Positions 8,058-18,947 of a DNA stretch of 45,027 nt are shown here, one piece after another. The notes under the pieces were generated by a model, which searched no databases, was not told the origin of the DNA, and saw only the letters and a program-made list of their open reading frames with translations. This DNA comes from Pseudomonadota bacterium (GTDB lineage Bacteria > Pseudomonadota > Gammaproteobacteria > Pseudomonadales > Moraxellaceae): contig CAUJHL010000007.1 in NCBI GenBank assembly GCA_963204705.1, positions 1-45,027 of the forward strand, written 5' to 3'. A program made the position numbers and the translations under genes. Numbering within the stretch: the stretch's first letter is position 1; each line of letters starts with the position of its first letter.

Positions 8058-8402
8058 ATGAAAGCCGCGTCTTGCCTAAAAGCCAGTCTGGGTCTGGGAC
8101 TCATTCTCCTGCAGTCAGCCTGTTCGCGGCCACCTTCTGATAGTGACGCCTTAACCGCTTATCAGCAGGAAGTCGGTCAAGTGAATCACGCCACCGAACA
8201 GCTCGGCAGCTCAGCACTGGCGATTACGGTACATTCGGTGCATGTGCTCAACTGTGAGCGTCGGGCGGATACGGATCAATACCGCTGTGAAGCACAAGTC
8301 GAAACCACCCTCCCCCTGATTGGTCGCCAAACCCAGAACACCACACTGACTTTTGGTAAAACCGACCACGGCTGGGTAGTGGTCAGGGGGGCGGGGAATT
8401 GA
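8058..8402 (+). CDS. Small putative lipoprotein, first gene after aspS
   Basis: 114 residues. The N-terminus is a lipoprotein signal: Lys and hydrophobic core, then LLQSAC with Cys22 as the probable acylated residue. The rest is soluble with two further Cys (LNCERR, YRCEAQ, about residues 59-72) that could form a disulfide. No known domain was recognised. The gene starts 1 base after aspS and its stop overlaps the TTG start of the deacetylase gene, so it is translationally coupled to the glycan locus. A role in envelope glycan assembly is guessed from position only. Confidence 0.75.
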   Translation: MKAASCLKASLGLGLILLQSACSRPPSDSDALTAYQQEVGQVNHATEQLGSSALAITVHSVHVLNCERRADTDQYRCEAQVETTLPLIGRQTQNTTLTFGKTDHGWVVVRGAGN

Positions 8403-9235
8403 CTGGGCTGGTGATGCTTGTCATGTTGCTCTGTCTGGGTTTCCTTGCCTTCAGTCACCGCTTTGGTTGGTGGCGTAAAACGACGGATTGGCAGCATCCG
8501 CGGATTCTTATGTATCACATGGTGCGGGAGCACATTCCCTCAGCCAAATTCAACAAATTGCGGGTCACGCCTCGCGCTTTTGAACAACAACTACACTGGC
8601 TGAGCACGCAAGGCTTTCATTTTTTTACCATGCAAGAACTCAGGGCATTGTGGAAAGCAGGTCAACTGCCCGCCAAATCCGTGGCCATTACCTTTGATGA
8701 CGGCTATGAGGATAACCTCATTAATGCTCTGCCACTTTTGCAAAAATATCAGGCCAAGGCCACGATTTATGTGGTGGTGGATCGCCATGACAATGACTGG
8801 GCAACCTATAAGAAAGCGCACCATAACAACGGCGAATTAATGCGTGAGCCCAAACTATCAGACCTGCAAGTGCAGGCGCTGGTAGACAGTGGCTGTATCG
8901 AGATCGGTTCCCATACGATGACGCATGTGAATCTGGGCAAACTGAACGATGAGAAGCTGAGGCTTAAGGAATTGACCGAATCCCGCACTCAGTTACAACA
9001 GTTGACCGGACAACCGGTTGAGAGTTTCGCCTATCCCTTTGGCATCTATGGACAGGCGGACGTGGAAGCAGCGCGCGCAGCAGGCTATCAGGATGCTGTC
9101 ACAGTCGCCGAAGGCATTGATCCAGCGCATCCACTGCCTGATTTTCTTCAGCTCAAGCGCATTAAAATCAGCGGTAAAGACACTCTGCTGGCATTTCGCA
9201 TCCGGTTAAGAACCGGAAAACGGGGCTGGAAGTGA
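8399..9235 (+). CDS. Polysaccharide deacetylase (NodB-homology, carbohydrate esterase 4)
   Basis: 278 residues: an N-terminal membrane anchor (about 2-19), then a NodB domain. Metal and catalytic motifs are visible: TFDDGY (98-103) with the Asp-Asp pair, and SHTMTH (171-176) giving the two zinc-ligand His. The family removes N- or O-acetyl groups from surface or cell-wall glycans, and the anchor places the enzyme in the periplasm facing the membrane. Start is TTG at 8399 overlapping the lipoprotein stop, with a purine-rich AGGGGG before it; GTG 8411 and ATG 8414 are alternatives. The stop overlaps the GTG of the next gene. The substrate is probably the product of this locus (inference). Confidence 0.88.
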   Translation: MTGLVMLVMLLCLGFLAFSHRFGWWRKTTDWQHPRILMYHMVREHIPSAKFNKLRVTPRAFEQQLHWLSTQGFHFFTMQELRALWKAGQLPAKSVAITFDDGYEDNLINALPLLQKYQAKATIYVVVDRHDNDWATYKKAHHNNGELMREPKLSDLQVQALVDSGCIEIGSHTMTHVNLGKLNDEKLRLKELTESRTQLQQLTGQPVESFAYPFGIYGQADVEAARAAGYQDAVTVAEGIDPAHPLPDFLQLKRIKISGKDTLLAFRIRLRTGKRGWK

Positions 9236-10296
9236 TCTATACTCATACGTCTTTCCCTGAACTTTCCGTGACTTTGGTCATGGCAGGTGTCGAAGATGGC
9301 GGAATGGAAAAGCATGTGCTGGAGCTGGCTGCAGGGCTGGCAGAGGCTGGGTTGGCGATCACCCTTATCGCTCATCCACGCTATCAGGCCATGCTGTCAA
9401 CGCGTAGAGTCACCTTTATGCCGGTTGATCTGGGCAAAAGCCGCCGTAACCCGATGGTGTTATTAGCGCTTAGGAAAGCACTCTATCAAAGTCGGCCTGG
9501 CCTGATTCATGTCCATGGCAACAAAGCCGCTGCCATGGTAGGAAGTCTAAAATCATGGCTTCCGCCAGTGCCTTTACTCGCCACCTTTCATAGCAGTCGC
9601 GGCAAGGCCAGTCCATTTAAGCGGTTTGACCACATCATCGCGGTCAGTGAGCGCTCGGCCTCGGTCATTCGGTCTCAGCTTCCCTCCATTCCCCTGTCCA
9701 TCATTCACAACGGCATCCAGCCACCCGTGAACATTGGGCATCCGGAACGTAAAGCCGATCGTTTGCTCGCCATCGGCAGACTGGTCCCCATCAAGAATTA
9801 TTCCGCGCTGATTGAGGCTATTCGTGGCTTGCCAGTGACATTGTGGGTAGCTGGTGATGGGCCGGAAAAAGACAGCCTCCAGCAACAAATCGCGCAATCC
9901 GGACAACAGGGCCAGGTTACATTGCTAGGCCACCGTGAGGATGTCACTGAACTCTTGCAGCACACGGGCTGGCATATAATCAGCTCGGTAGATGAAGGCG
10001 GCCCCTATACCCTTGCCGAGGCACTGTTATTGGAATGCCCCGTACTGGCCACCCCCGTTGGCATGGTCGCCGATTATCTGGATCCCCGCTGGATCAGTAG
10101 TGACAGCACCGTTGCATCACTGCGTTCATTCATTCAGACCTCAATTACCGTGTCACTGGAAGAACGGCAGATCGCATTTGCCCCTGCCTTTGCTCGGGCA
10201 CAACAGGAACTGACGTTTGACGCGATGTGCGGGCAGGTCCTTGCGCTGTATCAGCAGGTCTGTGGCAACTCACCAGCAACGGAGCACATGGCATGA
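9232..10296 (+). CDS. Glycosyltransferase family 4 (GT-B, retaining)
   Basis: 354 residues. It shows the GT4 pattern: an N-terminal glycine motif (GVEDGGMEKHVLELAAGL, about 19-36), a donor-domain entry (LLAIGRLVPIKNYSALIEAI, 178-197) and the E-x7-E signature EGGPYTLAEAL with Glu255 and Glu263. It transfers a sugar from a nucleotide donor to a lipid-linked or core glycan at the cytoplasmic face. Start GTG at 9232 overlaps the deacetylase stop (GTGA), and its own stop overlaps the next ATG (ATGA), so translation is tightly coupled. Donor and acceptor cannot be read. Confidence 0.9.
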   Translation: MIYTHTSFPELSVTLVMAGVEDGGMEKHVLELAAGLAEAGLAITLIAHPRYQAMLSTRRVTFMPVDLGKSRRNPMVLLALRKALYQSRPGLIHVHGNKAAAMVGSLKSWLPPVPLLATFHSSRGKASPFKRFDHIIAVSERSASVIRSQLPSIPLSIIHNGIQPPVNIGHPERKADRLLAIGRLVPIKNYSALIEAIRGLPVTLWVAGDGPEKDSLQQQIAQSGQQGQVTLLGHREDVTELLQHTGWHIISSVDEGGPYTLAEALLLECPVLATPVGMVADYLDPRWISSDSTVASLRSFIQTSITVSLEERQIAFAPAFARAQQELTFDAMCGQVLALYQQVCGNSPATEHMA

Positions 10297-11321
10297 CGAC
10301 CAAGCGGGTCATCTGGGTGCTGAGTGACGGAAAACCTGGCCATTACAATCAATCCAAAGGCGTGGTAGAAGCATTGGAACTACTTGGCCCCAATGAATTG
10401 CACTGGATTGATATACGCCTGCGTTCAGGACTTTGGCGCCCGCTGTTTAAGTTTTGGCAGAACACCCACAATGGCCAACTACCAGCACATTGGCTCCGCT
10501 GGGCCTACCAGGGACTATCATCGCTACCGAGTTCGGTGCCCGATGTGATCGTTACGACGGGAGGCAAACAGCTGTATGCCCTGATAGCACTGGCCAGAAT
10601 CTATTCAGCTAAAACGATTTTTGTCGGTACCTTGCATGGACTCCACCCAGAATTATTGGATGCCATACTGGTTCTGGAAACGCACCCAGAGCCGCAATAC
10701 CTGACCCTTCCACTTGCCCCCATGCCTGGAAATGAAGCTCTTTTTCAGCAAGCCTCAGCTGACTGGCAGCGAACCCACCCGCTTGAATCGGGCACCCTCT
10801 GGGCCATGCTCATCGGCGGGGATGGAGCAGGAGCTCGATACCAACCCCAAGACTGGCTACAACTTGCCCAATGGATGAATGCAACTGCAGCACAACAGGG
10901 TATACGCTGGCTGGTAACTACCTCAAGACGTACAGGGATCGAAGCGGAGTCCCTGCTTAAATCCCACCTGGACATGTCCACCCTTGCGGATGCTGTGTGG
11001 TGGGGTGAAAATCCTGCTAAGATAATGGCCGCCTATCTCGGGCGTGCTGCGCTTGTTTGCAGTACGATTGATTCCTTATCCATGATTACTGAAGCCATCA
11101 GCGCGGGGCGCCCGGTGATTGCACTAACTCCTGCAGAGTTTAAACCGGACCAGCGGTATGAGGAGGCTATTAACCGGATGGAAAGCAGGGGCTGGCTCAG
11201 AATGTTATCCGTGTTTTCTCCTCTAACTCCCCCGTTACCCGCTGTGTCCCTGCCAGCCGGTAATAGACAGCAACTGGCCAAAATGCTGAATACCCGGCTT
11301 GTTGCGCAGAGCAGTCGCTAA
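10293..11321 (+). CDS. ELM1-like GT-B fold protein (PF06258 / DUF1022 family)
   Basis: 342 residues beginning MTTKRVIWVLSDGKPGHYNQ, the characteristic start of bacterial relatives of the plant mitochondrial-fission protein ELM1. The C-terminal half contains ALVCSTIDSLSMITEAISAGRPVIAL, resembling the nucleotide-binding part of GT-B transferases. The start at 10293 overlaps the GT4 stop; the open frame extends 22 codons upstream but those overlap GT4. Bacterial members occur in LPS and glycan gene sets and are suspected glycosyltransferases, but no activity is established to my knowledge. The locus supports a role in surface glycan assembly. Confidence 0.82.
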   Translation: MTTKRVIWVLSDGKPGHYNQSKGVVEALELLGPNELHWIDIRLRSGLWRPLFKFWQNTHNGQLPAHWLRWAYQGLSSLPSSVPDVIVTTGGKQLYALIALARIYSAKTIFVGTLHGLHPELLDAILVLETHPEPQYLTLPLAPMPGNEALFQQASADWQRTHPLESGTLWAMLIGGDGAGARYQPQDWLQLAQWMNATAAQQGIRWLVTTSRRTGIEAESLLKSHLDMSTLADAVWWGENPAKIMAAYLGRAALVCSTIDSLSMITEAISAGRPVIALTPAEFKPDQRYEEAINRMESRGWLRMLSVFSPLTPPLPAVSLPAGNRQQLAKMLNTRLVAQSSR

Positions 11322-11438
11322 AGCAAGACAGCTATTCATTTTTGAGTAACAACACGCTGGATTGATTTGGCCTACAGGGTTAACATGCGGTTCATACCAC
11401 ATGAATGCTTTAGTGGTCTGTCTGGAGACCAATCTTCC

Positions 11439-12764
11439 ATGCCGTCTAGTCCCCGTGGCCCAGTCCTCTACTGGGGGTTTACGACCCATGATTTATCTGA
11501 GGCCGTTCAGGCAGTCTTGCGACCAGAGGATCTCTGGATAGGTAAAAATGTTCGTTGCCAGTATTCAGTGATCGACTTTCTGGAGTTTCGGCTAGAGCGA
11601 TTAACACTTCCAGTGCCATTGCAACACACCGATCTTTGTTTTGGGGCTGAATTGACACTGAGCATATATGCCACGATGCAACGCGAGCTGATGGGATGGC
11701 AAACCGGCCAAGTGGAAAAACAACAATTGCTGCGTTATTACACCCGGTGGTTTGCCACACTGCTTAAGCTTTACAAAATCGAGGAGGTTTGGTTTGCCTA
11801 CATACCCCACGAAGGAGCTTCGCTGATTCTTTATGCGGTGGCACAGGCCCTGGGTATTCGCACACCTATGTTCTACCAGTCACTGATGAGTAATCGGACG
11901 TTTCTGATTGAGCAGATTGAAGACATGGGCAAACTGCCTCAGCACGCCGGTCCGTGGCCTCCTTTTGCCGATACCCTAACGTTTGGCAAGCCGGAGCAAG
12001 ATTTGTTTTATATGCGCACCCTGCCCCCTGTAGTGAGTCAGCTGCGTTTTGGCTGGCGGAGTTTCTGGCCGAGACTCAAGGCTAAATTACGGGGAAAAAT
12101 TGCGCATATCGGAGTGATTGCGATAGCCGCTCGTCTAGCTCAGCGCCGTCAATGGCTGGCCATGCAAGCCAGAATGCAATGGGACTCCACGGAGTCATTT
12201 GCCAATAAAGCTTTTGTGTATGTACCGCTCCATTTGCAACCCGAACTCACCACGGATCCTCTGGGTGGCAAATATGGCGATCAGGCCCTGTTTATTGAAA
12301 TGCTTCGCCGCAAATTGCCTGAAGACATAGCTATTGTTATCAAGGAAAACCCCAAACAGGAATTTGAATCACGCAGTCAATTCTTTTGGCAACGACTGCG
12401 GCGCCTGCCCGAAACTTATGTGGTCGACCCGGGGGTGAATACCTATTTCCTGCTCCACCAATCTGCTGCTGTTGCCACGATCACTGGGACTGCTGGATGG
12501 GAGGGAGTTCTTGCTGGAAAACCAGTGGTTGTCGGTGGTGCGGCATGGTATCAAGACCTTCCGGGTGTGTGGCAACTGGATGAACTGCCTGAATGGCAGA
12601 ACCTGATGAAATTCAAGGCTGATTTTACACTTACCCGTAACGCGCTGGAATGTCTGGCCAGCAGTATGCCAGAGGTGATTGCAGACCCCGATTATCGCCT
12701 CATTTACCCCAGTTATGACTCAAGGGCAAACCAGTCCCGACTACAGGAAATTCTACAAACATGA
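11439..12764 (+). CDS. Capsule-synthesis-like glycosyltransferase, copy A
   Basis: 441 residues from ATG 11439, chosen because GGAG stands 11 bases before it and the protein start (PVLYWGF) then aligns with the start of the next gene. An in-frame ATG at 11385 and a TTG at 11367 are also possible. The C-terminal half has VYVPLHLQPELTTDPLGG, IVIKENPKQ and ITGTAGWEGVLAGKPVVV, resembling capsule polysaccharide synthesis proteins (PF05159, KpsC/KpsS-like). Those are beta-Kdo transferases using CMP-Kdo. It shares these blocks with the next gene (paralogue). Given the CMP-sugar genes downstream, a CMP-nonulosonate transferase is a reasonable guess. No signal peptide or membrane helix is visible, so cytoplasmic. 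Confidence 0.75.
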   Translation: MPSSPRGPVLYWGFTTHDLSEAVQAVLRPEDLWIGKNVRCQYSVIDFLEFRLERLTLPVPLQHTDLCFGAELTLSIYATMQRELMGWQTGQVEKQQLLRYYTRWFATLLKLYKIEEVWFAYIPHEGASLILYAVAQALGIRTPMFYQSLMSNRTFLIEQIEDMGKLPQHAGPWPPFADTLTFGKPEQDLFYMRTLPPVVSQLRFGWRSFWPRLKAKLRGKIAHIGVIAIAARLAQRRQWLAMQARMQWDSTESFANKAFVYVPLHLQPELTTDPLGGKYGDQALFIEMLRRKLPEDIAIVIKENPKQEFESRSQFFWQRLRRLPETYVVDPGVNTYFLLHQSAAVATITGTAGWEGVLAGKPVVVGGAAWYQDLPGVWQLDELPEWQNLMKFKADFTLTRNALECLASSMPEVIADPDYRLIYPSYDSRANQSRLQEILQT

Positions 12765-14140
12765 CCCGCCCTCGCCTGATCTGGGGGCTGGACCACCCAT
12801 TGACCCGTGTGGACTCGATCACAGACAAAGACCTATGGTTCGGTGATCGCCGTCTTTCACCCGTGCGTTTTGACACCATACGGTTATTTGCGGGTGACTT
12901 GAGTGAACTGGAACCTTGGCTAAAGCAAGGTTTGCTGGCACCGGAGCGACTTCAGGAACGATTTTATGAAAATCTGGACAAGTATTTAACCGTTTTCGAT
13001 CGTACTATTTTCGCCAGGGACCGAGATTTATCCACCTGTCGGGACTGGTTTTTTCTCCTATTCCACGCTCTAAATACTTTATTGCAACAAGAACGCCCAA
13101 ACTATGCGTTCTTTATTGCCCCCCCTCATTACGCGATTGATGTATTGCTTAGCGATTTATGTGAATGGCTGCACATTCCCCTTTTTTGGGGATTTCAAAG
13201 TTTGTTCCCAAATTGTTTTTGGATTTTGACTCCCTCCTTTGAAAAGATTCCAGCACCAACGCGTATAAGTGACATTGCTTTTCCAGAAGTAAATACGGAA
13301 AAGTTATTTTATATGCAAAACCTCAAGGTGCCCACTCGTTCTTACCTGTCTGTGATCGTTTTATGGCTTCGCATTCTGCTAGGCAAGCAAAAAAACAGTA
13401 CGGCATATACCGTTAAAAAAACCCTTTTGCAAATTCAATTTCAGCATAAGATGAAATCATTGAGTGAGCAATTGAAAACGCCAGAGCAGTTTCAGGATTA
13501 TCTACTTCTACAACCTTATGTGTATGTGCCTTTGCACCTTCAGCCAGAAATGACCACCAGTGCGTTGGGTGGAAATCGTTATCATGACCAGGGATGCGTC
13601 ATTGAAGATTTATTAGATAGGCTTCCTGACGGATGGCGCCTTCTCATCAAGGAAAATCCAAAGCAAGACTGGCAATTTCGCAGCGAGGCATTTTGGGCAC
13701 GGATTATGTCGGATTCTCGGGTGCATCTCGTGCCGAGAAATTTTTCTTCAAAACTGATTATTGAACACAGTGAAATGGTCGCTGTTATTTCTGGCACAGC
13801 TGGCTGGGAAGCGATTCGTATGGGAAAACCTGTTTTGGCATTTGGCTGGTGTTGGTATGGGGAGCTTCCGGGGGTATTTAAATATCACCCCACCGTAAAC
13901 CTTTCTACGCTCGCTAAACACAAGATTGTTCAGAACTCACTTCGCAAAGAATTTCAGTTAATGATGAATACCACCTGGGAAGGGATCATTGATGCTGACT
14001 ATAGCGTTCTAGTCTCAAATCACACTGACAAGGCGCAAACCCCTAACAAGATCGCTCATCTGATTGAGTGGCTGGACACACGTTATGCTGGAAATGATGC
14101 AGGATTAAGAACATCCTCTATTGAGGCTGCAATTCCGTAA
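12761..14140 (+). CDS. Capsule-synthesis-like glycosyltransferase, copy B
   Basis: 459 residues, overlapping copy A by ATGA. It repeats the same blocks: RLIWGLDHPL at the start, VYVPLHLQPEMTTSALGG, LLIKENPKQDWQFRSEAFW and ISGTAGWEAIRMGKPVL near the end. The two are a diverged tandem pair and not a recent copy, since the N-terminal 200 residues differ greatly. The gene is visibly richer in A+T than the genes upstream of it, marking where composition shifts. Function as for copy A: a GT-B transferase perhaps using CMP-activated acidic sugar, inferred from fold resemblance and the neighbouring genes. Confidence 0.75.
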   Translation: MTRPRLIWGLDHPLTRVDSITDKDLWFGDRRLSPVRFDTIRLFAGDLSELEPWLKQGLLAPERLQERFYENLDKYLTVFDRTIFARDRDLSTCRDWFFLLFHALNTLLQQERPNYAFFIAPPHYAIDVLLSDLCEWLHIPLFWGFQSLFPNCFWILTPSFEKIPAPTRISDIAFPEVNTEKLFYMQNLKVPTRSYLSVIVLWLRILLGKQKNSTAYTVKKTLLQIQFQHKMKSLSEQLKTPEQFQDYLLLQPYVYVPLHLQPEMTTSALGGNRYHDQGCVIEDLLDRLPDGWRLLIKENPKQDWQFRSEAFWARIMSDSRVHLVPRNFSSKLIIEHSEMVAVISGTAGWEAIRMGKPVLAFGWCWYGELPGVFKYHPTVNLSTLAKHKIVQNSLRKEFQLMMNTTWEGIIDADYSVLVSNHTDKAQTPNKIAHLIEWLDTRYAGNDAGLRTSSIEAAIP

Positions 14141-14247
14141 CGCTATATGAAGAACTTATTTTTTAGGATATGCATAATGCCCAGATTGACAAGTAATTTT
14201 CAATACCATGATCGTATTCTTGTGATATTAGGGCTTTGAGAAACCGT

Positions 14248-16275
14248 ATGAAAACAATTGCTATAGTTCAGGCAAGAATGGGTTCAACAAGACTCCCTAA
14301 TAAGGTGATGAAACGAATCAATGGATTGCCTGTTATTGAAATTCTTATTAGTCGTCTAAAACGATCATCCTGTCTCGATGGTATTGTGATTGCAACCTCC
14401 ATTAATCCCAATAATCTTCCCCTTATTGAACATGCCCAATCCCTGAACATACCCATTGAGCAAGGAAGTGAGGACGATGTATTTGATCGTTTTTTGCAAA
14501 CGGCCCGCAAACATCAGGCAGATATAGTGGTTCGGGTAACTGCAGATTGCCCACTCATTGATGCGAGATTAATTGATACTGCAATCGAACGCTTTCATGC
14601 ACTTGGTGTTGATTATCTCAGTAATGGGGCACCCCCTACGTACCCTGATGGATTGGATGTGGAGGTTATGAGCCGCGCTGCCCTTGAAAAGGCGGCCAGT
14701 GCGAATTTAACCACATTCGACAGAGAACATGTGACTCCGTATTTGCGCAAGTCTGGCAATTTTAAAATAGGTGTACTAAGCAACCCGATAGATTATTCCA
14801 GCCACCGCTGGACCGTTGATGAGCAAGTCGATTTTGAAGTAGTAACCAACGTGTTTAAACACTTTTCTCCCAATATTCATTTTGGCTGGGAGGAGATTTT
14901 AGAGCTTTCTCGAATTAAGCCAGAATTATTTACAGCAAATCAAAACCTGATCCGGAATGAAGGAGCCACCATGGGCACTGGCCAGAAACTTTGGAAACGC
15001 GCCAAGCAAATTATTCCCGGTGGCAACATGCTCCTGTCCAAACGGTCGGAAATGTTTTTGCCGGAACAGTGGCCGTCGTATTTTAGTAAATCCAAAGGCT
15101 GTACCGTCTGGGACTTGGATGGAAAGGCCTATACCGATATGTCGATTATGGGCATTGGTACTAATACGCTCGGGTACGGTCATCCCGAAGTCGATGCTGC
15201 CGTCATGCAGACCATTCAAAACGGGAATATGTCCACGCTAAACTGTCCTGAAGAAGTGTATCTGGCGGAAAAGTTATTGGCCCTGCATCCCTGGGCAGAC
15301 ATGGCACGGTTTGCCCGTTCGGGGGGCGAAGCCAATGCGATTGCCATTCGTATAGCCAGAGCAGCCACTGGTAAAGACAAAATTGCGGTATGTGGCTACC
15401 ACGGCTGGCATGACTGGTATTTGTCAGCCAATTTGGGGGATGAGCAAAATCTCGCGGGTCACTTATTGCCAGGTTTAAACCCTGCTGGGGTTCCCCAGAA
15501 TTTGCGTGGAACTGTGTTTCCCTTTAACTATAATCGCTACGACGAATTGGAAAAGCTGGTCACCGATCATGAGATTGGCGTTATTAAAATGGAAGTTATC
15601 CGTAATACCGGACCCGAAGATAACTTCTTGCATAAGGTTAGGGAGCTTGCGACGCGTAAAGGGATTGTTCTGATATTTGATGAGTGTACGTCTGGTTTCC
15701 GCGAAACATTTGGTGGCATTCATTTAAAATATGGTGTTGAACCGGATATGGCCATGTTTGGCAAGGCATTAGGCAATGGCTATGCTATTACTGCCACGAT
15801 AGGCCGCCGTGAAATTATGGAAGCTGCACAGTCTACATTTATCAGTAGCACTTTTTGGACAGAGCGGGTTGGCCCAACAGCTGCTGTTAAGACATTGGAA
15901 GTCATGGAAAAAGTAAAATCGTGGGAATCGATTACCAGTACAGGCTTACAAATTAAAAAGGGCTGGCAGCAACTTGCTGACAAACATGATTTGCCAATTG
16001 ATCATTGGGGTATACCAGCACTGACTGGTTTCAGCTTTTTAAGCGACCGTGCGCTCGAATATAAGACATTGATCACTCAGGAAATGCTTGAAAAGGGCTA
16101 TTTGGCTGGTAATAGCGTTTATGTTTGTACTGAGCACACTCCTGAAATAGTAGAAGCTTACTTTCACAATCTTGACCCTATTTTCGCGTTAATTAAAGAG
16201 TGCGAAGAAGGACGGGATGTATCAAGCTTATTAAAAGGCCCGGTGTGTCATGCGGGTTTTAAACGTCTTAACTGA
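14248..16275 (+). CDS. Fused SpsF-like cytidylyltransferase and class III aminotransferase
   Basis: 675 residues in two parts. Residues 1 to about 235 are a nucleotidyltransferase of the SpsF type (IAIVQARMGSTRLPNKVMK; VVRVTADCPLIDARLID), predicted to make a CMP-sugar. Residues about 242-675 are a fold-type I class III PLP aminotransferase similar to glutamate-1-semialdehyde aminomutase: IPGGNMLLSKR, ARSGGEANAIAIRIARA, IFDECTSGFRE and MFGKALGNGYA with the PLP Lys506. HemL normally has EVMTGFR where this has ECTSGFR, so it is not the housekeeping enzyme. ATG 14248 is preferred over TTG 14236. A strong Shine-Dalgarno and an in-frame ATG (14971) sit at the junction, so the second half may also be made alone. 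Base use is A+T-rich. Confidence 0.85.
   Translation: MKTIAIVQARMGSTRLPNKVMKRINGLPVIEILISRLKRSSCLDGIVIATSINPNNLPLIEHAQSLNIPIEQGSEDDVFDRFLQTARKHQADIVVRVTADCPLIDARLIDTAIERFHALGVDYLSNGAPPTYPDGLDVEVMSRAALEKAASANLTTFDREHVTPYLRKSGNFKIGVLSNPIDYSSHRWTVDEQVDFEVVTNVFKHFSPNIHFGWEEILELSRIKPELFTANQNLIRNEGATMGTGQKLWKRAKQIIPGGNMLLSKRSEMFLPEQWPSYFSKSKGCTVWDLDGKAYTDMSIMGIGTNTLGYGHPEVDAAVMQTIQNGNMSTLNCPEEVYLAEKLLALHPWADMARFARSGGEANAIAIRIARAATGKDKIAVCGYHGWHDWYLSANLGDEQNLAGHLLPGLNPAGVPQNLRGTVFPFNYNRYDELEKLVTDHEIGVIKMEVIRNTGPEDNFLHKVRELATRKGIVLIFDECTSGFRETFGGIHLKYGVEPDMAMFGKALGNGYAITATIGRREIMEAAQSTFISSTFWTERVGPTAAVKTLEVMEKVKSWESITSTGLQIKKGWQQLADKHDLPIDHWGIPALTGFSFLSDRALEYKTLITQEMLEKGYLAGNSVYVCTEHTPEIVEAYFHNLDPIFALIKECEEGRDVSSLLKGPVCHAGFKRLN
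14960..14973 (+). promoter_or_regulatory. Internal ribosome binding site and in-frame ATG at the domain junction
   Basis: AAGGAG (14960-14965), five bases, then ATG (14971-14973), in frame with the fusion and exactly at the start of the aminotransferase domain (MGTGQKLWKRAKQ). It is one of the best Shine-Dalgarno matches in the locus. Internal initiation is inference. Confidence 0.55.
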
Positions 16276-16287
16276 GCACACTAAATA

Positions 16288-17808
16288 ATGAATCTTATCG
16301 TAATACGGGTGGATGCTTCCAATACTATGGGTTCAGGCCATATCATGCGTTGCCTGACGTTAGCCAACGCGCTTTCAGAACAGGGCTGCCGATCTCATTT
16401 TATCGTGCGCCATCTCCCAGCATCGCTTGAAGATTTGATTAAGCAATCGGGACATGAATGCACCCGTCTGCCTAGAGCAGATTCCACCCCGGATGAATTG
16501 CCACACAGCGAATGGCTGGGTGTTTCTCAGGCAGACGATGCAAAAGCCACTGCGCAGTTCATTGTACAGCTGGACTCAAAACCCGACTGGCTGATTGTGG
16601 ACCATTACGCTCTGGATATTCGCTGGGAAACGTTGCTTCGCCCCTTAATTTGCCGGTTAATGGTCATTGATGATCTGGCTGATCGCCATCATGACTGTGA
16701 TGTATTGCTTGACCAGAATGAATATTTGGATAAAGCCTCTCGATATCGTGAGTTGATACCCACTCACACCCCCTTGGCTTTAGGGGCTCGTTTTGCTCTA
16801 TTGAGACCTGAGTTTAAGCGCTTGCATACGCAAGTGGCTACGCGTCAGGGTCCTGTAAGAAATATTTTGATTTTTTTTGGAGGCATGGATACACACAATT
16901 ATACTGCTAAAGTTTTATCAATACTTCCAGAAGTTCTAATTCAGCTTGAGTCTAGTGTTGAGATTAATGTCATCATTGGAAGCGAGCACCCCGATCGGGA
17001 GTACATTACCCGAATTTGTGACGAGCAATCGTATAATCTCCATATTCAAACTACCAAAATGGCTGAACTCATGGCTGCAGCGGATATGGCGATTGGTGCT
17101 GGAGGTTCGGCAAGTTGGGAAAGATGCAGTGTCGGACTTCCTTCTCTCGCATTTGCTGTTGCTCACAACCAAATTCAGTTAACCGAAGATGCTTGTCTTT
17201 CAGGTGTTTTGGAAAGTCCTGCCGTGGACTGGAACAGTGCATCTTCTATTAAAGTAGCAATTAGTGCGATGATCATGAATCCGCTGGGTCGACAGCGTAT
17301 TTCCCAATTGGGTTTAGCAATGGTCGATGGCCGGGGTGTCGATCGTATCCTGAGATTAATGGATTTCCATTCCTGCACGCTAAGAAAAGCTTGCCAAGAT
17401 GACTCGGAATTCATCTGGAACTGGAGAAATCACGAAAAGATACGTAATGTTTCCAGGAATCAAGAGGTAATACCTTGGGAAAATCATAAGATTTGGTTTG
17501 ATAATACTCTTAAATCGCATGATCGCCTATTACTTATTGGTGAAATGCACTCACTGCCAATAGCTGTCCTCAGATTTGATCTTATCAACTTACAAAGGGC
17601 CGAAATCTCTATATTTCTTGATCCAGAGTCTTCAATACAGGGTATGGCTGTAGAGTTGATAAATGCTGCAGAACATCATGCCAAATTGTTTTTTTCAGGG
17701 CTAAACGAAATTGTTGCTGTAGTACTGGCCGACAATCATGCTTCACACGCACTTTTTCATCATGCCGGGTTTCATAGAATAGAAACTCATTATTGCAAAT
17801 CTATTTAG
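16288..17808 (+). CDS. PseG/SpsG-like UDP-sugar hydrolase fused to a GNAT acetyltransferase (PseH-like)
   Basis: 506 residues. Residues 1 to about 345 resemble PseG, which cleaves UDP from the altrose-type precursor of pseudaminic acid: RVDASNTMGSGHIMRCLTLA with the conserved His18, WLIVDHYALD, and the nucleotide-binding GAGGSASWERCSVGLPSL. Residues about 352-506 look like a GNAT acyltransferase: TLRKACQDDSEFIWNWRNH at the start and LADNHASHALFHHAGF near the end, as in PseH, which acetylates the 4-amino group. In canonical systems these are two proteins. The Shine-Dalgarno is weak. The gene follows the fusion by 12 bases and precedes the synthase by 10, so one operon. The A+T content is high. 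Confidence 0.85.
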   Translation: MNLIVIRVDASNTMGSGHIMRCLTLANALSEQGCRSHFIVRHLPASLEDLIKQSGHECTRLPRADSTPDELPHSEWLGVSQADDAKATAQFIVQLDSKPDWLIVDHYALDIRWETLLRPLICRLMVIDDLADRHHDCDVLLDQNEYLDKASRYRELIPTHTPLALGARFALLRPEFKRLHTQVATRQGPVRNILIFFGGMDTHNYTAKVLSILPEVLIQLESSVEINVIIGSEHPDREYITRICDEQSYNLHIQTTKMAELMAAADMAIGAGGSASWERCSVGLPSLAFAVAHNQIQLTEDACLSGVLESPAVDWNSASSIKVAISAMIMNPLGRQRISQLGLAMVDGRGVDRILRLMDFHSCTLRKACQDDSEFIWNWRNHEKIRNVSRNQEVIPWENHKIWFDNTLKSHDRLLLIGEMHSLPIAVLRFDLINLQRAEISIFLDPESSIQGMAVELINAAEHHAKLFFSGLNEIVAVVLADNHASHALFHHAGFHRIETHYCKSI

Positions 17809-17818
17809 GCTTAATCCT

Positions 17819-18886
17819 ATGAATACTGTATTAAAAATCGGCAATCGGTTAATTGGCCCTGATTATGCCCCATTTATTATCGCCGAAATGTCCGGTAATC
17901 ACAACCAGTCGCTTGAGCGCGCATTTGAACTGGTTGATGCCGCAGCGGCTGCGGGTGCTCACGCACTCAAATTGCAGACTTATACGGCGGATACCATCAC
18001 GCTAAATGTACGTGAGAAAGGTTTTGTCATTGAAGACCCCAACAGTCTGTGGGCAAATCAAAATCTACATGATTTGTACAGTAAAGCTTACACACCCTGG
18101 GAATGGCATGCACCTATTTTTGAACGGGCAAAACAACATGGAATGGAGTGCTTCAGCTCACCTTTTGATGAAAGTGCGGTCGATTTTCTGGAAACGCTCA
18201 ATGTTCCTGCCTATAAAATTGCATCATTTGAAAATAATCATTTACCCTTAATTCGCAAGGTCGCGGCAACTGGTAAACCCATGATTATCTCAACGGGTAT
18301 GTCCACAGCTTCGGACATTGAAGAGGCGGTCAAAACCGCACGTTTAGCGGGGTGCAAGGATCTGATTCTTTTAAAATGCACCAGCACTTATCCTGCCTTG
18401 CCGACTAATTCTAATGTCATAACAATCCCTCATATGCGTGAGTTATTTGGCTGTCAGGTTGGCCTGTCTGACCATACCATGGGAGTTGGTGTTTCAGTTG
18501 CTGCCGTCTCTCATGGTGCTACGGTTATTGAAAAACATTTCACTTTAAGAAGAGCGGATGGCGGTGTCGACAGTAGTTTTTCGCTGGAACCTGAGGAATT
18601 AAAATCTCTGGTAATCGAAACTGAGCGGGCTTGGCAAAGCCTGGGCAAAGTCAATTATGGCCCTACAGAGGCAGAAACAAAATCGCTAATGTTCCGCCGG
18701 TCTATATACGTCGCACACGATATTCATGCAGGTGAACAGTTTACCGCTGAAAATATTCGGGTTGTAAGACCGGGTTTTGGATTACACCCACGCTTTTACG
18801 AGCAATTGATTGGTAAAGTTTCGCCTATTGCACTGACCGCTGGTACCCCTTTTAATTGGGAATTAATGCTTGATAAACATCCGTAG
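17819..18886 (+). CDS. pseI: Pseudaminic acid synthase (NeuB/PseI/SpsE family)
   Basis: 355 residues. It condenses phosphoenolpyruvate with a six-carbon amino sugar to a nine-carbon nonulosonic acid. The N-terminal TIM barrel carries FIIAEMSGNHNQSLERAFEL, LKLQTYTADTITL, AYTPWEWH, CFSSPFDESAV, KIASFE, STGMST, LKCTSTYPA, GLSDHTMG and EKHFTL. The C-terminal SAF (antifreeze-like) domain has FRRSIYVAHDIHAGE and GFGLHPRFYEQLIGK. The AYTPWEWH and LKCTSTYP forms match PseI better than sialic or legionaminic synthases. It is the last gene of the locus; a terminator follows within 30 bases. PseB and PseC are not in the window, so precursor supply must come from elsewhere or differ. Confidence 0.93.
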   Translation: MNTVLKIGNRLIGPDYAPFIIAEMSGNHNQSLERAFELVDAAAAAGAHALKLQTYTADTITLNVREKGFVIEDPNSLWANQNLHDLYSKAYTPWEWHAPIFERAKQHGMECFSSPFDESAVDFLETLNVPAYKIASFENNHLPLIRKVAATGKPMIISTGMSTASDIEEAVKTARLAGCKDLILLKCTSTYPALPTNSNVITIPHMRELFGCQVGLSDHTMGVGVSVAAVSHGATVIEKHFTLRRADGGVDSSFSLEPEELKSLVIETERAWQSLGKVNYGPTEAETKSLMFRRSIYVAHDIHAGEQFTAENIRVVRPGFGLHPRFYEQLIGKVSPIALTAGTPFNWELMLDKHP

Positions 18887-18915: not shown

Positions 18916-18947
18916 AAAAAGCCAGTCAAACAGTTGACTGGCCTTTT
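18916..18947. terminator. Bidirectional terminator between pseI and the pirin gene
   Basis: GCCAGTCAA, loop ACAG, TTGACTGGC is a perfect 9-bp stem with an A-run before it and CTTTT after it, fitting termination on both strands between two convergent genes. Confidence 0.85.

Follow-up and report, generated by a model that had tools for sequence, protein, structure and literature searches.

A stretch of DNA from a bacterium of the Moraxellaceae, 45,027 nucleotides long and called the window here, carries two overlapping genes for capsule-synthesis-like proteins, and genes predicted to make a CMP-nonulosonate lie just downstream. Do the two proteins transfer the nonulosonic acid, and do they use the catalytic residues of the known capsule enzymes? 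Few known transferases place pseudaminic and related acids outside flagella. From sequence comparison, we consider it likely that KpsA and KpsB, as they are named here, are CMP-nonulosonate transferases and that their family, which is uncharacterised and widespread, has an altered catalytic set. The evidence for this assignment is homology, a resemblance in fold, linkage of the genes and conservation of residues.

A diverged pair of capsule-type proteins

11439..12764, + strand: KpsA (name given here), 441 aa, first Capsule_synth-like protein, predicted CMP-nonulosonate transferase
12761..14140, + strand: KpsB (name given here), 459 aa, second Capsule_synth-like protein, predicted CMP-nonulosonate transferase

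The preliminary description of this DNA reported two diverged paralogues, and this is borne out. Both open reading frames are present at these coordinates, the end of KpsA and the start of KpsB have 4 bp (ATGA) in common on the + strand, and the proteins are 29% identical over their full length (BLASTP E 5e-39). Both match PF05159 (Capsule_synth), KpsA with an E-value of 2.5e-10 (40.8 bits) and KpsB with 1.3e-6 (28.5 bits). Because both scores are above the curated gathering cut-off of 20 bits, the resemblance to the capsule family is not due to chance. Three sequence blocks, i.e., LHLQPE (KpsA 264-269, KpsB 258-263), KENPKQ (KpsA 302-307, KpsB 297-302) and GTAGWE (KpsA 350-355, KpsB 345-350), had been described as shared with the capsule family. 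All three are found in both proteins, but they are signatures of the family to which the two proteins belong. Where KpsA and KpsB have LHLQPE and KENPKQ, KpsC and KpsS have QXXXD and KXHP.

The family is linked to nonulosonate synthesis genes

Homologues consistently standing apart from CMP-sugar genes would, according to the preliminary description, speak against a nonulosonate donor; we found the family together with such genes. Among 369 genomes of the class, 13 are positive for the family (called at E 1e-10). A NeuB-type synthase is present in all 13, compared with 109 of 369 overall (133 matches at E 1e-3 minus 24 weak ones; hypergeometric p 8e-8), and PseI is above the cut-off in 9 of 13, compared with 37 of 369 (p 2e-7). 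The family gene and the NeuB-type gene are in the same locus in 12 of the 13. As a control, genomes with a true KpsS show no enrichment, with a NeuB-type gene in 4 of 15 and none close by.

When 85,000 species genomes were scanned, 76 loci were found, and these span Pseudomonadota, Campylobacterota, Bacteroidota, Planctomycetota, Verrucomicrobiota, Bacillota, candidate phyla and archaea; the genome loci of the linkage survey overlap in taxonomy. A NeuB-type gene lies within the examined locus stretch in 50 of the 76 and elsewhere in the genome for 22 of the 26 others, i.e., 72 of 76 family genomes have one. For 23 family rows, the distance to the NeuB-type gene is less than 600 bp. Canonical PseC is present in 19 of the 24 family genomes tested. 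Gene linkage alone identifies neither the donor nor which transferase of a locus uses the nonulosonate.

One family member stands in a haloarchaeal locus (L115) beside NeuB, NeuC and AglB, the archaeal oligosaccharyltransferase. Haloarchaea are not known to make Kdo, and thus this member speaks against Kdo being the donor of the family. Three viral contigs (L116-L118) have a family member near a gene for a PseF-like cytidylyltransferase, an arrangement that suggests phage- or virus-encoded nonulosonate modification. No phage relatives were found in INPHARED, and the three plasmid relatives found are weak. The longest close relative of KpsA is in a Methanophagales archaeon MAG (L094, 10001-12986; 42% identity in the best segment), where another Capsule_synth protein, less closely related, comes after it, with two NeuB-type matches and a HemL-type aminotransferase nearby. 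An 852-aa ORF in L061 was considered as a fusion of PseI and the transferase and rejected, since Pfam finds no NeuB domain and the ORF is over-extended at its start.

Distant kinship with KpsC, KpsS and WbbB

Profile searches return only KpsC (1e-13) and WbbB (1.6e-6; family profile) as credible relatives in the PDB. In profile comparisons with hhalign, the best matches are other QXXXD-bearing Capsule_synth proteins (1.3e-21), and KpsS (7.5e-11) and the KpsC-C module (1.2e-9) are matched as well. AlphaFold models were obtained for KpsA (pTM 0.88, pLDDT 87.5, built on 89 family sequences) and KpsB (pTM 0.88, pLDDT 84.5, built on 81 family sequences). By Foldseek, the nearest glycosyltransferases to both models are KpsC and WbbB: the KpsA model matches WbbB at 9.6e-7 and KpsC at 4.7e-6, and the best match of the KpsB model is the KpsC ternary complex (E 1.5e-7). 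UDP-GlcNAc 2-epimerases have Foldseek E-values similar to those of KpsC and WbbB, and in the comparison of the reduced GT-B fold no global TM-score to KpsC exceeds 0.46, a low value. Because of this, Foldseek supports but does not prove the transferase assignment, and the fold alone does not fix the function. The kinship to KpsC/KpsS proposed earlier is retained as distant homology with a KpsC/WbbB-like fold, but the altered catalytic residues set the pair outside GT99/GT107.

Altered residues at the presumed active site

KpsC and WbbB use the Asp of QXXXD as nucleophile and a Glu as base, and the His of their (K/R)XHP motif contacts the CMP phosphate (PMC10148158, PMC12887879). Profile alignments to KpsS and related proteins place HLQPE of KpsA on QXXXD and KENP on KXHP, and a MAFFT alignment with a true two-module KpsC gives the same placement. 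The corresponding sites are as follows.

12243..12245, + strand: KpsA Glu269 (QPE), placed by profile alignments on the KpsS Asp, which is the nucleophile position of QXXXD
13547..13549, + strand: KpsB Glu263, equivalent of KpsA Glu269
12342..12353, + strand: KpsA Lys302-Glu-Asn304-Pro305, counterpart of the (K/R)XHP CMP-binding motif
13649..13660, + strand: KpsB Lys297-Glu-Asn299-Pro300, counterpart of the (K/R)XHP motif
11805..11810, + strand: KpsA Pro123-His124, near-invariant N-domain motif, candidate general base

Position 269 (KpsA numbering) is Glu in 109 of 109 family proteins and Asp in the KpsS/KpsC set, and position 302 is Lys in all 109. At position 304, Asn is found in 76 of these proteins, His in 32 and Asp in 1. 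Since most family members were found with a scan pattern that covers GTAGWE and not positions 269, 302 and 304, this conservation is not a selection effect. Arg82 and His124 are each conserved in 99 of 109, and Arg82, His124, Glu269 and Lys302 or their equivalents are present in both KpsA and KpsB. The KpsS-like general-base Glu falls near Tyr146/Gln147 of KpsA, a place at which few family members have Glu, but the alignment of the N-domain is weak. A link between Asn304 and PseI-type synthases (48:7 versus 10:13, Fisher p 1e-4) is not claimed, because no more than 3 independent pairs for it are present on the tree (sign test p 0.5).

Loss of the CMP-binding site was the other finding that had been named as decisive against a CMP-sugar donor, and here the outcome is mixed. 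KENP in both proteins retains the Lys and Pro of the motif, but the phosphate-contacting His is replaced by Asn. In KrkA, the equivalent His-to-Ala mutant is dead (PMC12887879). None of the known capsule enzymes checked here has the same residues at the presumed active site. Because KpsA and KpsB have Asn in place of the His and Glu in place of the nucleophilic Asp, they lie, as judged by these alignments, outside GT99/GT107, and their stereochemistry cannot be inferred from the Kdo transferases. The invariant Glu places the whole family outside GT99/GT107 too, while the basic scaffold and the CMP-site Lys remain.

Predicted donor genes and the surrounding locus

8399..11321, + strand: polysaccharide deacetylase, GT4 and ELM1-like glycosyltransferase triad, possible acceptor-glycan genes
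14248..16275, + strand: PseF-like cytidylyltransferase fused to a HemL/GSA-type class-III aminotransferase (PF02348 1.1e-26, PF00202 8e-41)
16288..17808, + strand: PseG-like UDP-sugar hydrolase fused to a PseH-like acetyltransferase (TIGR03590, TIGR03585)
17819..18886, + strand: PseI, pseudaminic acid synthase family (TIGR03586 499.8 bits, cut-off 340)

The genes downstream of the pair, predicted to make a CMP-nonulosonate, are present as described, with a PseF-like/aminotransferase fusion, a PseG/PseH-like fusion and a PseI that is above its curated cut-off. The PseG-like match scores 301 bits with TIGR03590 (cut-off 153.6). The PseH-like match with TIGR03585 (56 bits) and the match of the first fusion to NF004856 (1e-71) are below their cut-offs. 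A nine-pair hairpin with a T-rich tail just past PseI (18921-18942) is a likely operon terminator; such sites are no more frequent in this region than chance would give.

The genome that holds the window is 99.5% complete, and it has no PseC-type (DegT) match at all and no PseB above the cut-off. It still has PseF, PseG and PseI. Given the missing matches, the donor would be a CMP-nonulosonate of some kind, or the pathway may be incomplete here. The HemL-type aminotransferase is unsupported as a general PseC substitute, since other family genomes with the HemL type also have PseC. Close homologues of the 14248-16275 fusion (57-82% identical) are found in nonulosonate loci of other phyla, in genomes that have PseC. 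The fusion thus looks like an added step and not a PseC substitute. No Maf protein (PF01973), as an alternative transferase, was found in this genome.

The deacetylase-GT4-ELM1 triad occurs without KpsA and KpsB in relatives, whole in four and partial in two more. It looks, therefore, as if the pair and the nonulosonate genes had joined an envelope-glycan locus that is older than they are, and the glycan of this triad locus is probably the acceptor. In relatives with the triad but without the nonulosonate block, a second, diverged ELM1-like gene is often close by.

Two copies in one locus

Two family members are found in 19 of 88 loci, ten of these head to tail within about 115 bp, and the pair is a repeated design across loci. 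In the tree, the copies from Planctomycetota-type loci separate into two parallel clades, which indicates an old, retained duplication. KpsA and KpsB are both on long branches. A recent duplication as their origin is unsupported, given the low identity (29%) and the long unresolved branches. The GC content of KpsA (0.51) is like that of the upstream triad, and that of KpsB (0.45) is like that of the nonulosonate genes, a contrast that hints at separate histories. Across 11321-18886, GC steps from 0.51-0.55 (up to KpsA) to 0.44-0.45 (KpsB to PseI) inside the operon. From sequence comparison, it is plausible that the two copies serve two acceptors or form two linkages.

Proposed function and alternatives

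We suggest that both proteins are GT-B glycosyltransferases that work in the cytoplasm, and that their uncharacterised family belongs to the KpsC/KpsS (Capsule_synth) superfamily. Each protein would take a nonulosonic acid from its CMP donor and add it to an envelope glycan under construction, of the LPS core or O-chain type. The products of the genes just downstream, i.e., the PseF-aminotransferase, PseG-PseH and PseI proteins, would supply the donor. The C-terminal domain would bind CMP via Lys302 and Pro305, with KENP replacing KXHP, and Asn304 would touch the phosphate where the relatives use His. Since Glu269 is invariant and stands at the place of the nucleophilic Asp of KpsC, it could be the nucleophile of a double displacement, or otherwise a catalytic carboxylate. 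The acceptor may be activated by a base other than the Glu of KpsC/WbbB, perhaps His124. The two copies probably act on two acceptors or add two successive nonulosonate residues, and this is the least certain step. A fuller hypothesis, of a new GT family spread widely over bacteria, archaea and viral contigs, with double displacement through a covalent glutamyl-sugar intermediate (Glu in place of Asp), Asn in place of His at the CMP phosphate and paired copies for two nonulosonate linkages, is put forward tentatively, as we doubt that all of these elements will hold. The original proposal, CMP-nonulosonate transfer by the pair, gains from homology, fold and specific, repeated gene linkage, but the KXHP His and the QXXXD Asp are replaced. 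Furthermore, the lack of canonical PseB and PseC in its own genome leaves the nature of the donor, and even its supply, in doubt.

An alternative is that KpsA and KpsB move an ordinary sugar, from a UDP, GDP or dTDP donor, that adjoins the nonulosonate, so that the linkage to NeuB only reflects shared clusters. Polysaccharide clusters contain several transferases, so linkage alone cannot assign a donor; the KXHP His is lost in both proteins, and Foldseek matches the GT-B epimerase fold too. However, we regard this as rather unlikely, since the association persists in many phyla, in archaea and on viral contigs, where the clusters are otherwise different, and the 23 family rows less than 600 bp from a NeuB-type gene point the same way. 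In addition, CMP-ulosonates are used by all of the closest characterised relatives, and Lys302 of the CMP motif is invariant. The nearest solved structures are those of Kdo transferases, and on this ground the pair could be true Kdo transferases like KpsC/KpsS that use the housekeeping donor CMP-Kdo. This is most improbable, given that QXXXD is absent and KXHP is altered, that the family tracks nonulosonate genes whereas true KpsS does not, and that a member is found in a haloarchaeon.

The locus could also be partly decayed or incomplete here, such that the nonulosonate is not made without PseB/PseC or one paralogue is inactive. The missing PseC-type and PseB matches in a nearly complete genome and the long branches of both paralogues are consistent with this, but every ORF is intact, both copies hold the family-conserved Arg82, His124, Glu269 and Lys302 or their equivalents, and the fused aminotransferase may indicate another precursor route. 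Decay is thus quite unlikely in our judgement, and transfer of a nonulosonic acid from CMP is the reading that we prefer.

Relation to known transferases

With nonulosonate transfer as the probable function, the family is coherent, has a fixed signature and is linked to the pathway across phyla and archaea, which provides many testable candidates. It also raises the question of whether the unusual double-displacement chemistry of Kdo transferases can operate with a glutamate nucleophile. It has been suggested that ulosonic acids with an axial C5 substituent, i.e., Kdo and Pse, suit this chemistry (PMC12887879), and the family bears on that suggestion.

KpsC and KpsS (GT107, the beta-Kdo transferases of group 2 capsules) share the Capsule_synth superfamily with KpsA and KpsB and may share the reduced GT-B fold; KpsC is the best PDB profile match, and the Lys and Pro of the CMP motif are retained. 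In contrast, the family has Glu for the QXXXD Asp and His or Gln for its Gln, KpsA and KpsB have Asn for the KXHP His, and the general-base Glu is not conserved in the family on a weak N-domain alignment. The family genes are also linked to nonulosonate genes, not to capsule-Kdo loci. The N-terminal domain of WbbB (GT99) is alike by Foldseek (9.6e-7) and by a weak profile match, but shows the same catalytic-residue differences as KpsC, and WbbB adds Kdo, not a nonulosonate. KrkA (GT140) is a CMP-ulosonate transferase of the same structural group, within which sequence similarity is negligible, and it retains QXXXD and HP (PMC12887879).

GtfS / TFUB4_00887 of Tannerella forsythia (Pse and Leg transferases), compared here by description, are similar as GT-B proteins of about 445 aa. 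GtfS is encoded directly after pseI and is genetically shown to be a Pse transferase, and GtfS / TFUB4_00887 knockouts lose the nonulosonate (PMC6388019, PMC6120980). Membership in NCBIfam NF046086 (the BFO_1060 family) was rejected, since 13 of 89 members match weakly and never near the cut-off, as was membership in the NCBIfam LA_1612 family, where the matches are weak and partial.

Between KpsS1 of Acinetobacter baumannii (GT118) and E. coli KpsS, the identity is 30% (PMC12887879), whereas KpsA and KpsB have only short, weak BLASTP matches to the available KpsS sequences (best E 2.5e-5 over 101 aa). On inspection of the translations, no conserved YE, the base motif of KpsS1, was seen in the N-domain of KpsA or KpsB. 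KpsS1 is a retaining transferase of Pse5Ac7Ac from CMP-Pse (PMC12887879). It is already known, therefore, from work on KpsS1 (GT118, PMC12887879), that a relative of KpsS can be a retaining pseudaminyltransferase, and this capsule-type protein, compared by description, is the precedent for the function proposed for KpsA and KpsB.
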